Origin: Verrucomicrobiota bacterium | GTDB lineage: Bacteria > Verrucomicrobiota > Verrucomicrobiia > Opitutales > UBA953 | Length of the DNA stretch: 34,066 bases | Assembly: GCA_030831965.1 (NCBI GenBank) | Contig: JAURJZ010000037.1 | Span: 1 to 34,066 of the forward strand | Reading direction: 5' to 3' | In this document: one piece after another, positions 28,837 to 34,066 of the stretch | Layout: each line of letters opens with the position of its first letter | Numbering within the stretch: the stretch's first letter is position 1 | Translations under genes and position numbers: made by a program | Notes under the pieces: model-generated | What the model was told of the DNA's origin: nothing | Seen by the model: the letters and a program-made list of their open reading frames with translations, nothing else | Database searches by the model: none

Positions 28837-29574
28837 TCAGCGCCGCTTGCGGCTGCGTCCGCCGGAGGACCCCTCGCCCTCCTCGCCGCCGGGCTCGGGA
28901 TCGCGCTCGTCCTCGTCGCCCCAGCGCATGGTCTCGTCCTCGGCCAGCCGCTCGTCGCCCTCGGGCAGGTCCTCGATGTCGTCCTCGGCGGCGCGGCGGG
29001 CGGGCTTGTCCTCATCCTCGTCGTCGACGGGCAGCTCATGCCCCTCCGGAACGTAGTCGAGGATGACGTTGATCTCGTCCAGCGTGTGGATGTCGCGCCC
29101 CTCGATCAGGGCCTGGTTGCGCAGGTCGCCGACATGCTCGTCGATGTCCTCGAAGGTCAGCTTCTGCTCGAGCTTGATGTTGTCGTTGAGGAATTTCACC
29201 CGCAGCCGCATGATGTGCTCGAGGAAGTCGGCGTAGGCGCCCTTGTCGCCGTCCTTGACGTTGGGCAGGCCGAAGAGCTGCTCCTCGGACTCGAGGATGT
29301 GCTCGGCGACGCGGGCGAGGCGCACCGTGTCGTCCTTGTCCACCGACTGGATCTGGAAGGGCACGAACGCCGCCTCGATGATCTCGTTGGACAGGCCGTA
29401 TTCCCGGAGCGGGTCGAGCTGGTCCAGGATCCAGGGAAGCTGGCGGGGGTCGAGGATGCCCAGGCCGTCCGGGTCGTAGTGGCGGGGATCGGAGGTCTCG
29501 CGCACCCACCACTTGGCGGTCTTGGCGTCGAACTTGACCGTGCACCAGAGGAGCTTGGACGAGGTGGGGAGCAT
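28837..29574 (-). CDS. Unrecognised protein with acidic tail and basic C-terminus
   Basis: I do not recognise a family. The 245-residue protein has no signal peptide or membrane segment. Residues 1-180 look folded, with mixed beta and amphipathic helix. They start with LLWCTVKFDAKTAKWWVRE, which has a strand-turn-strand look, and include helical stretches such as IPMTA-free charged segments near 84-102 and FLEHIMRLRVKFLNDNIKLEQ (117-137). Residues 183-232 are dominated by Asp and Glu with DDEDEDK, EDDIEDLPEGDE and GDEDERDPE, and are probably disordered. The chain ends GGRSRKRR. Such a tail suggests binding to a basic or nucleic-acid-binding partner, or electrostatic autoregulation; this is inference. 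Its stop is 6 bp from the stop of the convergent protease gene, and it diverges from pyrD. Confidence 0.8.
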   Translation of the reverse strand: MLPTSSKLLWCTVKFDAKTAKWWVRETSDPRHYDPDGLGILDPRQLPWILDQLDPLREYGLSNEIIEAAFVPFQIQSVDKDDTVRLARVAEHILESEEQLFGLPNVKDGDKGAYADFLEHIMRLRVKFLNDNIKLEQKLTFEDIDEHVGDLRNQALIEGRDIHTLDEINVILDYVPEGHELPVDDEDEDKPARRAAEDDIEDLPEGDERLAEDETMRWGDEDERDPEPGGEEGEGSSGGRSRKRR

Positions 29575-29672: not shown

Positions 29673-30734
29673 ATGGGCCTCCTCTACGACCGCGCCATCC
29701 GCCCCCTGCTCTTCCGCATGGACCCGGAACGCGCCCACGCCCTCGGGCTCCGCGGCATGGCGACGCTCGGCGCCTGCTCGCCCCTGCGCGCCCTGCTCGA
29801 GCGGTCAACCCTGCCCGCCGGCGCGCGCCCGATCGAGCTCGCCGGTCTCCGCTTCCCCAACGCGGTGGGGCTGGCCGCCGGGTTCGACAAGGAGGCGGTG
29901 GCCTGGAGGGCCGCCGCCGCGCTTGGCTTCGGGCACGTCGAGGTGGGGACCGTGACGCGGCTGGGGCAGCCGGGAAATCCCGCGCCCCGGATGTTCCGCT
30001 ATCCCGCGATCCGCGGGGTCGTCAACCGGCTCGGCTTCCCCAACGCCGGCGCGGAGGCCGTGGCCGGGCGCCTCGCGAAGGCCCCCCCGAGGGGCGACCG
30101 GGCCATCCCCCTGGGAATCAACCTCGGCAAATCGAAGGTCGTCGACCCCGCCGACGCCGAGGCGGTCGCCCAGGACTACCTCGCCTCGCTGCGCCTGCTG
30201 GCGCCCCACGCCGACTACCTCACGGTCAACATCAGCAGCCCCAACACGCCGGGACTCCGCACCCTCCAGGACCGCGCCCCGCTCACCTCGCTGCTGCGCC
30301 ACCTCATGGCGGCGAGCCGGGATCTCGAGGGCGGGACGCGGCCGGTCTTCCTCAAGATCGCCCCCGACCTCAACCCGCGGCAGCTCGACGACATCCTGGC
30401 GGTCGTGGCCGAGACCGGCCTGGCCGGCATCATCGCGACCAACACCACCCTCGCCCGTCCCCCGGGAACCGAGGGCTGCGAGATCCAGGGAGGCCTCAGC
30501 GGCGCGCCCCTGCTTGGGCGGTCCCTCGGCGTCGTGCGCTACCTCTGCCGGGCCTCCCAGGGCCGGATTCCCGTCATCGGCTGCGGCGGCATCCTGTCCG
30601 CCGCGGACGCCGGACGCTTCCTCGACGAGGGCGCGCGGCTCGTCCAGCTCTACTCCGGGCTCATCTTCCGCGGACCCTCGCTGGCCCGCGAGGTGGCCCG
30701 GGGCCTTTCCGTTCGCCAACGCCCCTGGATCTGA
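29673..30734 (+). CDS. pyrD: Dihydroorotate dehydrogenase (quinone), class 2
   Basis: PyrD oxidises dihydroorotate to orotate in pyrimidine synthesis, passing electrons to quinone at the inner membrane. The 353-residue protein starts with the amphipathic membrane-associating segment MGLLYDRAIRPLLFRMDPERAH typical of class 2 in function, split here for display as residues 1-22. It contains LAAGFDKEAVAW (67-78), EVGTVT, GVVNRLGFPNAG, the catalytic-loop NISSPNTPGLRTLQ (186-199) with the class 2 serine, and the FMN phosphate-binding IGCGGILSAADAGRFLDEGA. A TAGGAT lies 8 nt before the ATG and may be the -10 of a near-leaderless promoter. The next gene begins 1 nt after the stop. Confidence 0.95.
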   Translation: MGLLYDRAIRPLLFRMDPERAHALGLRGMATLGACSPLRALLERSTLPAGARPIELAGLRFPNAVGLAAGFDKEAVAWRAAAALGFGHVEVGTVTRLGQPGNPAPRMFRYPAIRGVVNRLGFPNAGAEAVAGRLAKAPPRGDRAIPLGINLGKSKVVDPADAEAVAQDYLASLRLLAPHADYLTVNISSPNTPGLRTLQDRAPLTSLLRHLMAASRDLEGGTRPVFLKIAPDLNPRQLDDILAVVAETGLAGIIATNTTLARPPGTEGCEIQGGLSGAPLLGRSLGVVRYLCRASQGRIPVIGCGGILSAADAGRFLDEGARLVQLYSGLIFRGPSLAREVARGLSVRQRPWI

Positions 30735-30735
30735 C

Positions 30736-31446
30736 ATGCACCTCCCCGCCCTGATCGTCCTCGCCGCCGCCACCCTCGCGGCCAAGCCCGCCCGCAAGGG
30801 CGACCCCATGGCGCCCGAGACCTGGGTCGCCGCTCCCGCCGCGCACCAGGGCAAGACGGTGCGCACCGCGGCTCTCCGGCTCGAGGAGCCGGGGCTGGTG
30901 GCCGGCGACGCGCCCGCGGCCGCCCTCCGCCTGGAAGGGGGCAACGACAAGGGCGAGACCGGCGGCGCCATCATCGCGCTCGTCCCCGTCGGGCAATTCC
31001 AATCCTTCGCCGAGACCTACTCCAAGATGGAGGCCGGCAAGGGCCGGGGAGGCTTCGGCGCCATCGCCAAGCCCAAGGTCGTGGCGGGCACCTTCGCCGT
31101 CGTCGCCGGCGAGCCCGCCCTGCTGGTCGGCCTTCCCGCCGACGCGGCCACCCGCCTGCCCAAGCCCTCCGAGCTGCTCAAGGCGCAGCTGGCCAGGGCG
31201 AGGGAGGAACTGCTCAAGCCGTCGCGCCCCGGCTGGCAACGCAAGGCCTTCGTCCTGTCCCGGCTCGACCAACGCAACCAGGCCGAGACCACGCGCGAGC
31301 TCCAGCGCCTGTGCGACCTGGCCAACGCGGCCGACAAGACCCGGCGGCTCACCCCGCGCGAGGCCGTGCGGCTCGCGCGCGAGGGGGAGTCGCTCGTGTT
31401 GCCGGATGAGAAGGCCAAGACCGAGTGGCTGCTCACCTGGGAATGA
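30736..31446 (+). CDS. Secreted hypothetical protein
   Basis: I do not recognise a family. The 236-residue product has a short signal peptide (MHLPALIVLAAATLAA, probably cleaved before KPARKG). The N-terminal half is beta-rich (GKTVRTAALRLEEPGLVAGD; GAIIALVPVGQFQSFAETY; VVAGTFAVVAGEPALLVG), which could be a small barrel or OB-like domain. The C-terminal half is helical and charged, with SELLKAQLARAREELLKP and LTPREAVRLAREGESL. The ATG follows the pyrD stop by 1 nt, so it is translationally coupled, although no functional link with pyrimidine synthesis is evident. An upstream in-frame start at 30514 lies inside pyrD and is rejected. Confidence 0.78.
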   Translation: MHLPALIVLAAATLAAKPARKGDPMAPETWVAAPAAHQGKTVRTAALRLEEPGLVAGDAPAAALRLEGGNDKGETGGAIIALVPVGQFQSFAETYSKMEAGKGRGGFGAIAKPKVVAGTFAVVAGEPALLVGLPADAATRLPKPSELLKAQLARAREELLKPSRPGWQRKAFVLSRLDQRNQAETTRELQRLCDLANAADKTRRLTPREAVRLAREGESLVLPDEKAKTEWLLTWE

Positions 31447-32078: not shown

Positions 32079-32762
32079 ATGGAATCCAGCAAGGAATCGG
32101 GCACCTTCCTCTCGAGGCTCGGGGGGAATTTCCTGACCGGCCTTCTCCTCCTGCTCCCCCTCGGGCTGACGCTCTGGATCCTCTCCATCCTGCTCGACCT
32201 GATGGGCATCTACGCCCAGCCCCTGGTCGAGGCGGGCGTGCGGATCCTGCACGGCAGCCTCGGCCAGCCGGAACCCTCCCTCGAGGGCGGCCTGTGGCGC
32301 CAGGGCGTGATCCTGGTCTCGGCGATCCTCTCGGCCATCTTCCTCACCATCGTCGGCTTCCTCTCCAAGCGCCTGTTCGGACGCATCCTGCACAACGCCT
32401 TCGCCTCCCTCCTCGGCCGGGTGCCGGGACTGAGCGGCCTCTACGGCTCGATCAAGCAGATGGTCGACGCGCTCACCGGCCAGAACAGGCAGACCTTCCG
32501 CCGGGTCGTGCTCGTCGAGTTTCCCCGCCCCGGATGCTGGGCCATCGGCTTCGTGACCAACGAGCAGCCGGAGGCCTTCAGCGAGGCCATCGGCCGGCAG
32601 GTGGTCAATGTCTTCGTCCCGAACGCGCCCGCGCCGACCGCCGGGTTCATCCTCCAGGTCGAGCCCTCGCAGATTCGCGAGACGAAGCTGGGCGTTTCCC
32701 AGGCCATCGGCCTGCTCGTCTCGTTCGGCGCGATCATGCCGAGGTCGGACGACAAGGCCTGA
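32079..32762 (+). CDS. DUF502 family membrane protein
   Basis: The 227-residue protein has two transmembrane helices: NFLTGLLLLLPLGLTLWILS (about 17-36, extending to about 42) and GVILVSAILSAIFLTIVGFL (about 76-95). The conserved DUF502 segment RVPGLSGLYGSIKQMVDAL (114-132) follows, then a soluble beta-rich C-terminal half with VVLVEFPRPGCWAIGFVT and VFVPNAPAPTAGFILQV. The family is widespread with no settled biochemical role. An upstream in-frame start is rejected because it lies in the divergent promoter region. The RecO-like gene begins 1 nt after its stop, so these genes are probably one operon. Confidence 0.9.
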   Translation: MESSKESGTFLSRLGGNFLTGLLLLLPLGLTLWILSILLDLMGIYAQPLVEAGVRILHGSLGQPEPSLEGGLWRQGVILVSAILSAIFLTIVGFLSKRLFGRILHNAFASLLGRVPGLSGLYGSIKQMVDALTGQNRQTFRRVVLVEFPRPGCWAIGFVTNEQPEAFSEAIGRQVVNVFVPNAPAPTAGFILQVEPSQIRETKLGVSQAIGLLVSFGAIMPRSDDKA

Positions 32763-32763
32763 G

Positions 32764-33363
32764 ATGCCCTCGGGCCCGTTCCGCTGCCTCGTCCTTGGGC
32801 GCGAGCCCTCCGGCGAGTCGCACCTGCTCCTCAGCCTCCTTGAGCCCGAGGAGGGCGTGCACCCCTGCCTGATCCGGGCGAACCGCAGGGGGGACGGGCG
32901 CCCCGACCTGTTCGACGAGGCGGAGGTGGCGCTGGAGCGCCCGCGCGGGGGGTCCAACCGCTTCGTGCGCGACTACCGCGTCCTGCGCCGTCAAACGGGC
33001 ATCGGCCGCAGCCCGCAGGCCCTGGAACGGGCCAGCCGGCTCGGCAACCTCGTCCGCCGCAACCCGCCCCCGCCCGAATCCGCCGCGGTCGCCTTCCGCA
33101 TCGTGCAGGAGACGCTCGACGCCATGGCGGCCCGGCCCCGCCCCGACGCGGCCTACCTCAAGGCCCTCTGGCTCCTGCTCAAGGATGGCGGCTGGCCGGT
33201 CGAGGCCGACTGGCTCGGCCGCCTCGGCGCGAGGGCGGCGGCGGCCGCCGCGGTCCTCGCCGCGCCGCTCGACGCGCAGACGGTCGACGCCGCCGCGGTC
33301 GCCGCCCTCAGCCTCGACCTCGAGCGATGGGCGGCCGGCGAGGTCCACTACGTCCTGCCCTGA
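32764..33363 (+). CDS. RecO-like protein
   Basis: The N-terminus FRCLVLGREPSGESHLLLSLLEPEEG (about residues 6-31) matches the oligonucleotide-binding-fold start of RecO, where a Leu-rich strand is followed by a GES/D turn and a hydrophobic helix. RecO helps load RecA onto SSB-coated single-stranded DNA and anneals strands. The middle (ALERASRLGNLVRRN) resembles the RecO helical domain. At 199 residues it is shorter than typical RecO, and it has no CxxC zinc knuckle, so it may be a divergent RecO or a paralogue. It sits 1 nt after DUF502 and overlaps the nuclease-helicase gene by one base (TGATG), which supports a DNA repair role. Confidence 0.55.
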   Translation: MPSGPFRCLVLGREPSGESHLLLSLLEPEEGVHPCLIRANRRGDGRPDLFDEAEVALERPRGGSNRFVRDYRVLRRQTGIGRSPQALERASRLGNLVRRNPPPPESAAVAFRIVQETLDAMAARPRPDAAYLKALWLLLKDGGWPVEADWLGRLGARAAAAAAVLAAPLDAQTVDAAAVAALSLDLERWAAGEVHYVLP

Positions 33364-34066
33364 TGCGCATCGACGCCGACAACTGGCGCATCGTCCTCAG
33401 CGCCCAGGATTTCGCCGGATTCCGCCCGGGTCCCGCCGCGGGACGCGCCGCCCCCGCCTGGCGGGCGGAGGCCGGACGCCAATGGCACGAGACCCTGCGG
33501 CAGGAGGCGGACGCCCTCGCCCAAGGCTGGCGATTCGAGGTCGCGGTGGAGGCCGAGCTCAAGGCCAAGGGCTGGATCCTGCGGATCAGCGGCAGGGCCG
33601 ACCAGTGGCGCGATTCCGGCGGCGACATCGAGATCGTCGAGGTCAAGACCGTGCTCGGCGGGCTTCCTCGGGCGGAGCGTCTCCTGCGCGAATCCCACCC
33701 CCATCACTTCCTCCAGCTGGGCGCCTACTGCCACGCCGCCCGCCTCCTGCCCGGCACCCGCTCCGTGCGGGGACGGCTTGTCCTGGTCGACCCCACTCAG
33801 GGAAACCGGCAGGAAATCGCCCTGGGCGACGAGGACGAGCGGGCGCTGCAAGCCCAGGCCGAGCTCATCGCCGCCCATGCGGAGAACCGACGCGCCGGCC
33901 ACGCCCGCCTGCTCGCCCTGCCCGACCGGCTGCCGTTCGCCGAGCCCCGCCCGGAGTGGCTGGAGGCGGGGGCCGAGCTCGACGCCACCGCCGGGCTTGC
34001 CCTGCGGCTCCTCGTCGCCCCCACCGGATTCGGCAAGACCTCCGCCGCCCTCCGCCACGGGCTCGC
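33363..34066 (+). CDS. PD-(D/E)XK nuclease fused to a superfamily 2-type helicase, 3' end outside the window
   Basis: The frame starts at ATG 33363, overlapping the RecO-like stop, and is open to the right edge (about 234 codons). Residues 1-150 carry a RecB/Cas4-like nuclease: motif I GRQWH (38-42), GRAD with Asp80, EVK (93-95) and QLGAY (118-122), all in the right order. There is no cysteine quartet for an iron-sulfur cluster in this part. After a helical linker a Walker A, APTGFGKT (219-226), opens a helicase domain. The order and the PTGxGKT motif match DinG/XPD-like helicases with an N-terminal nuclease known from Firmicutes. The role is probably DNA repair or processing; the helicase family needs the missing 3' part. 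Confidence 0.75.
   Translation, partial: MRIDADNWRIVLSAQDFAGFRPGPAAGRAAPAWRAEAGRQWHETLRQEADALAQGWRFEVAVEAELKAKGWILRISGRADQWRDSGGDIEIVEVKTVLGGLPRAERLLRESHPHHFLQLGAYCHAARLLPGTRSVRGRLVLVDPTQGNRQEIALGDEDERALQAQAELIAAHAENRRAGHARLLALPDRLPFAEPRPEWLEAGAELDATAGLALRLLVAPTGFGKTSAALRHGL

Follow-up and report, generated by a model that had tools for sequence, protein, structure and literature searches.

What do the three genes at the right-hand end of this DNA do together, and do they form an undescribed repair system? The window, which is the whole stretch of 34,066 nucleotides that was analysed, makes up all of contig C13 in a genome of 1.85 Mb and 98% completeness, from an aquatic bacterium of the order Opitutales (Verrucomicrobiota), and it ends in a cluster of genes for a DUF502 membrane protein, a short RecO-like protein, and the N-terminal part of a nuclease-helicase (Table 1). 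A preliminary description had held that overlapping stop and start codons join all three genes, that the RecO-like protein lacks zinc cysteines and is a special partner of a nuclease-helicase of the XPD/DinG kind, and that the pair may be an undescribed system; it proposed to look for an open frame with Fe-S cysteines beyond the contig end and for a canonical recO elsewhere in the genome. Our analysis suggests that this is probably a housekeeping DUF502-recO-EndoDinG repair cluster, in which a RecA-loading mediator is co-expressed with a helicase-nuclease. EndoDinG is a barely studied subgroup of the DinG helicases without an assigned pathway.

Table 1. Features of the gene cluster at the end of the window (positions in the window)
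Feature	Position	Strand	Remark or evidence
DUF502 membrane protein gene	32079..32762	+	first of cluster; Pfam PF04367, E 1.8e-29
recO, short (199 aa), zinc-less recombination mediator	32764..33363	+	sole recO found in the genome
TGATG stop/start overlap, recO to nuclease-helicase gene	33361..33365	+	sequence
EndoDinG-type gene, 5' part (residues 1-234)	33363..34066	+	rest on contig C31 (L008:2-1834)
PD-(D/E)XK (RecB/Cas4-type) nuclease domain	33456..33893	+	PDDEXK_1 match, conserved residues
Walker A APTGFGKT, helicase motor	34017..34040	+	sequence; K225 and T226 invariant (103 of 103 rows)

The recO stop codon shares one base with the ATG of the nuclease-helicase gene at 33363, and a TGATG or TAATG overlap was present in all 15 relatives from the two nearest genera in which recO was read through. 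In contrast, a one-base gap separates the TGA of DUF502 (32760-32762) from the ATG of recO (32764), and this junction is therefore near-touching and not overlapping. Thus, the overlapping joins of the preliminary description hold for recO and the nuclease-helicase gene, but not for DUF502 and recO. A promoter scan showed no sigma-70-like site upstream of DUF502, and an Rfam search of the DNA returned nothing, both of which are uninformative in this GC-rich genome. Elsewhere in the window, two predicted proteins (28840-29574 on the minus strand and 30700-31443 on the plus strand) had no Pfam match at E up to 0.001.

The nuclease-helicase gene could be completed from contig C31, whose bases 1-249 duplicate the end of C13 apart from a single synonymous mismatch. 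The break between the contigs (window 34066 / G000:C31:1-249) was probably caused by strain variation, and the long overlap with its single silent mismatch allows the two to be joined. C31 prolongs the frame by 610 codons up to a TGA, giving a protein of 762 aa, so that the frame stays open beyond the contig end as anticipated. Close relatives all encode the protein in a single open frame of equal length, and the join is therefore sound. Furthermore, full-length orthologues within the genus share 72-79% identity, which excludes chance as the origin of this frame.

The joined protein is almost certainly a helicase-nuclease of the EndoDinG type, as judged from its sequence and from the model of a relative. 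Pfam domains PDDEXK_1 (residues 32-176), DEAD_2 (309-395), and Helicase_C_2 (587-742) were all found above cut-off, and the window part by itself matched PDDEXK_1 with 31.2 bits against the Pfam cut-off of 22. The nuclease residues H42, E59, D80, E93-x-K95, and Q118-x3-Y122 lie upstream of Walker A, and helicase motifs II-VI are present, which bears out both the RecB/Cas4-like motif set and the XPD/DinG kinship seen from the window. Residues H42, E59, D80, E93, K95, Q118, and Y122 occur in nearly all of the 103 members compared and in all 31 that lack the Fe-S cysteines; Walker A, DEAH, and motif VI are kept in essentially all 103, including these 31, with motif VI missing from one fragment. 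The conservation of the nuclease and helicase residues suggests that the enzyme is intact. The top PDB match by sequence was DinG of Finegoldia magna (9kqh, E 1.7e-25). A structural model, made not for the window protein but for a 63%-identical orthologue on L109 (pLDDT 88.1), matched 9kqh over its full length (776 columns, TMq 0.73, E 1.6e-41). The fusion architecture is already described: the text of a 2025 review names the combination of a nuclease with DinG EndoDinG, and gives H, E, D, E, and K as its nuclease residues and a CCCC Fe-S motif (Cheng 2025, PMC11981726). The architecture described in that text thus takes away the claim of an undescribed system as far as the fusion is concerned.

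Could the gene instead belong to a defence or CRISPR module, of the type IV-A DinG or the Cas4-like kind? PADLOC models do match it (typeIV_DinG, E 2.5e-49; Cas4, E 7.7e-5), but these matches stem from homologous domains. The matches to the curated DinG, YoaA, Cas4, and Csf4 models were far below cut-off, with 8.5 versus 400 bits for Csf4 and 20.7 versus 65 bits for Cas4. The gene is also shared vertically across the order, beside recO, and we regard a role in defence as very improbable. An identity as Cas4 or CasDinG (Csf4) was rejected on the sub-cut-off scores and on the absence of any CRISPR-like array from the scanned stretches; neither CRISPR arrays nor cas genes were seen next to orthologues. 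As a separate observation, G055:C1 and G087, of genus g24, carry several near-equal, scattered PDDEXK_1 proteins of ~315 aa (five in G055), which are probably the nuclease of a mobile element.

The Fe-S cysteines looked for in the extended protein are absent: none of the four is found in its Fe-S region, where VPPW stands in place of the VCPYE of others. They are missing from all sampled EndoDinG proteins of the window's GTDB family and from those of a few other Opitutales, while in the remaining Opitutales EndoDinG proteins this region holds either three cysteines or a minimum of four. Outside Opitutales, every EndoDinG in the compared set has at least four. The tree backs descent from Fe-S-bearing forms, and we therefore name the protein an Fe-S-less variant of the EndoDinG architecture. 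Parsimony places three changes on the tree, but well-supported branches force only one; therefore, we do not claim several independent losses. For the comparison of Fe-S loss with loss of the recO link, the tree holds only 1 to 3 independent pairs.

Fe-S loss need not mean the loss of unwinding, since SaDinG and PaCasDinG, Fe-S-less DinG proteins of other subgroups, are active and can be strong helicases (PMC12345164). By analogy with S. aureus DinG and CasDinG, the Fe-S domain of the window protein is predicted to act as a “pseudo Fe-S” domain. In the text of the review, pseudo Fe-S domains are given only for CasDinG, CasDinG-HNH, and some ExoDinG proteins (PMC11981726). Thus, going by that text, the Fe-S-less EndoDinG lineage appears to be new. 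In Opitutales, the cysteines run from four to three to none with nuclease and helicase residues unchanged, and this natural series is well suited to the question of what the Fe-S cluster does for XPD/DinG helicases.

We are nearly certain that the middle gene encodes RecO, on the strength of a predicted structure and of profile comparison. The AF2 model of the 199-aa protein (pLDDT 91.7) shows an OB-fold followed by a helical domain, as in RecO. All 11 Foldseek matches to the PDB with E <= 0.001 were RecO, from Deinococcus, Thermus, E. coli, and Campylobacter, and the best, 1u5k_B, covered the whole protein (E 2.3e-8, TMq 0.78). A PDB sequence search with the RecO alignment gave only chance helical matches, and it was the structural search that decided. 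In addition, hhalign aligned residues 1-128 with canonical RecO (probability 97.8, E 8.2e-13). The family models responded weakly: Pfam RecO_N matched the window protein with E 0.12 and its relatives repeatedly and in register (best E 2.8e-4), PF11967 gave 12.9 bits, below its cut-off of 27, and TIGR00613 (NCBIfam recO, cut-off 48.7 bits) had no match anywhere in the window's genome. In related genomes, TIGR00613 matches the exact coordinates of the same gene, with up to 28 bits; together with the profile-profile match, this indicates that the sub-cut-off scores reflect divergence and not non-membership. TIGR00613 and PF11967 remain under cut-off in most Opitutales (L040-L069, L109-L149), so that automatic annotation would report recO as missing there. 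The zinc cysteines are lacking as the preliminary description had stated, with no CxxC pairs and hence no C4 zinc site. This is ordinary, as RecO of E. coli and of T. thermophilus is also without the site (PMC12192639).

Of 103 Opitutales, 76 carry the Opitutales-type RecO, always in a single copy; among the 88 good genomes, 73 do. Only two weak matches to it lay beyond the order, and the recO model matches 162 of 195 genomes of the phylum sample. A search of the window's genome with the recO family model found no second recO, canonical or otherwise, and recF and recR are present elsewhere in the genome. Among the 94 loci for which sufficient sequence before recO was fetched, 83 have DUF502 on the recO strand and no more than 400 nt ahead of it, and this gene order includes two loci outside the class with a canonical zinc-bearing RecO. 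Structure, profile match, synteny with DUF502, and single copy together indicate that the gene is the orthologous recO, shortened and diverged. It is the single recO of its lineage, and the notion of a special partner protein is not supported. Genome G102 carries an Opitutales-type recO on C15 and a second RecO on C23 (L070:790-1308); the latter is the short type of other orders of the class and reflects either bin contamination or a transferred copy.

How firmly is recO tied to EndoDinG? Among 58 genomes with both genes, 19 have the two within 250 nt and 9 more have them within 2.4 kb, in each case on one strand; in the other 30 they lie apart. In the linked pairs (28/58), which come from many families, recO is always upstream on the same strand, and in many separate families it lies directly before EndoDinG, often with a stop/start overlap or a spacing below 30 nt; named Opitutae, Opitutales, Opitutaceae, and Opitutus loci repeat the pair. 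The operon-like arrangement of the preliminary description is thus found across the order, although conservation of the pair is partial. Across the order sample, the counts are 58 genomes with both genes, 4 with EndoDinG only, 18 with RecO only, and 23 with neither (Fisher p 2.5e-8, a value inflated by shared ancestry and reduced genomes). In genus g3 of the window's family, RecO is kept and EndoDinG is missing in every genome examined. The linked state requires about 11 changes on the tree, which indicates a loose arrangement, and the gene orders are consistent with an old arrangement that was broken many times. Separation in 30 of 58 genomes, together with 18 genomes that have RecO but no EndoDinG, shows that neither gene needs the other; the link is real but not obligatory, and there is no dependency. 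In the phyla examined outside Opitutales with the Opitutales RecO profile, no RecO was found beside EndoDinG. The linkage of EndoDinG with recO in Opitutales is new, as is the Fe-S-less lineage. The preliminary description had named, as grounds against its own reading, a gene that was the only recO and had no conserved link with the helicase; the former is the case, but the link is partly conserved. At four loci (L053, L058, L064, and L117), some 0.9-1 kb separates recO from the helicase gene, and the intervening gene encodes an exported protein, LolA-like by eye.

The most probable role of the cluster is recombinational repair, in which EndoDinG would travel 5'-3' on single-stranded DNA, unwind forks, flaps, or broken ends, and cut the displaced strand, making or trimming single-stranded DNA at gaps, flaps, or ends for use by RecO(R). 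RecO, with its OB-fold and helical bundle, would join RecR (and RecF) in displacing SSB and loading RecA. The stop/start overlap may couple translation of the two genes. We judge the chances to be even that RecO and EndoDinG serve one repair process; a stable physical complex of the two is unlikely. The repeated place behind recO leads to the testable suggestion that EndoDinG acts in the RecFOR branch of recombination.

It is also quite possible, at somewhat less than an even chance, that the genes are ordinary operon neighbours, encoding independent repair proteins without a joint mechanism and served by one promoter region that came down from the Opitutales ancestor. DUF502, which has no known repair link, accompanies recO more constantly than any other gene. 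Operon position by itself is weak evidence of joint function, and DUF502 has that position too. The separated genes in 30 of 58 genomes, the 18 more with RecO alone, and the LolA-like lipoprotein gene between recO and EndoDinG in several genomes agree with mere neighbourhood. In contrast, the location of recO immediately upstream and in the same orientation in many separate families argues against it, as does the co-occurrence in the order sample, allowing for its inflation by kinship.

A far stronger association, in which short RecO and Fe-S-less EndoDinG make up one machine standing in for AddAB/RecBCD in the genus, is improbable. EndoDinG supplies the sole PDDEXK_1 domain detected in the genome, so that neither AddAB nor a RecB nuclease came to light, and RecF, RecR, and RecO are all present. 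However, the PF12705 scan is insensitive and missed the EndoDinG of G006; the absence of AddAB/RecBCD from the genome is therefore only hinted at. Moreover, many Opitutales carry the linked pair plus AddA/AddB-like frames (e.g. G058 and G070). Still less probable is the full version of this idea, a bound pair of Fe-S-free EndoDinG and minimal RecO that would pass single-stranded DNA to the RecA loader and replace AddAB/RecBCD. We favor the housekeeping repair cluster, and the reading as an undescribed system is not supported.

Four comparisons place the two proteins among known systems: (i) the RecO family (TIGR00613, PF11967; PDB 1u5k, 1w3s, 8ab0), with which the window RecO shares the OB-fold, the helical bundle, and the DUF502-recO neighbourhood, but from which it differs in its 199-aa length, the absence of zinc cysteines, and scores under the Pfam and NCBIfam cut-offs; (ii) Finegoldia magna DinG (9kqh), a full-length structural match for the model of the 63%-identical relative, which keeps the Fe-S-region cysteines and has about 20% identity; (iii) S. 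aureus DinG (ExoDinG) and P. aeruginosa CasDinG, which likewise lost the Fe-S ligands and kept the helicase motor, although neither has a PD-(D/E)XK domain, SaDinG carrying a DnaQ-type 3'-5' exonuclease and CasDinG no nuclease; and (iv) the EndoDinG subgroup itself, represented by DinG of B. bacteriovorus HD100 (PMC11981726). The text of that review mentions neither Verrucomicrobiota or Opitutales nor a recO neighbour. By its sequence, the window protein fits the subgroup in its nuclease domain and SF2 core and departs from it in the CCCC motif. In the review text, EndoDinG is described with CCCC, whereas the window protein has no Fe-S cysteines and adjoins recO. Both have the N-terminal PD-(D/E)XK domain, the H/E/D/E/K residues, and the SF2 XPD/DinG motor, and Bdellovibrionales relatives were retrieved with the same EndoDinG profile.
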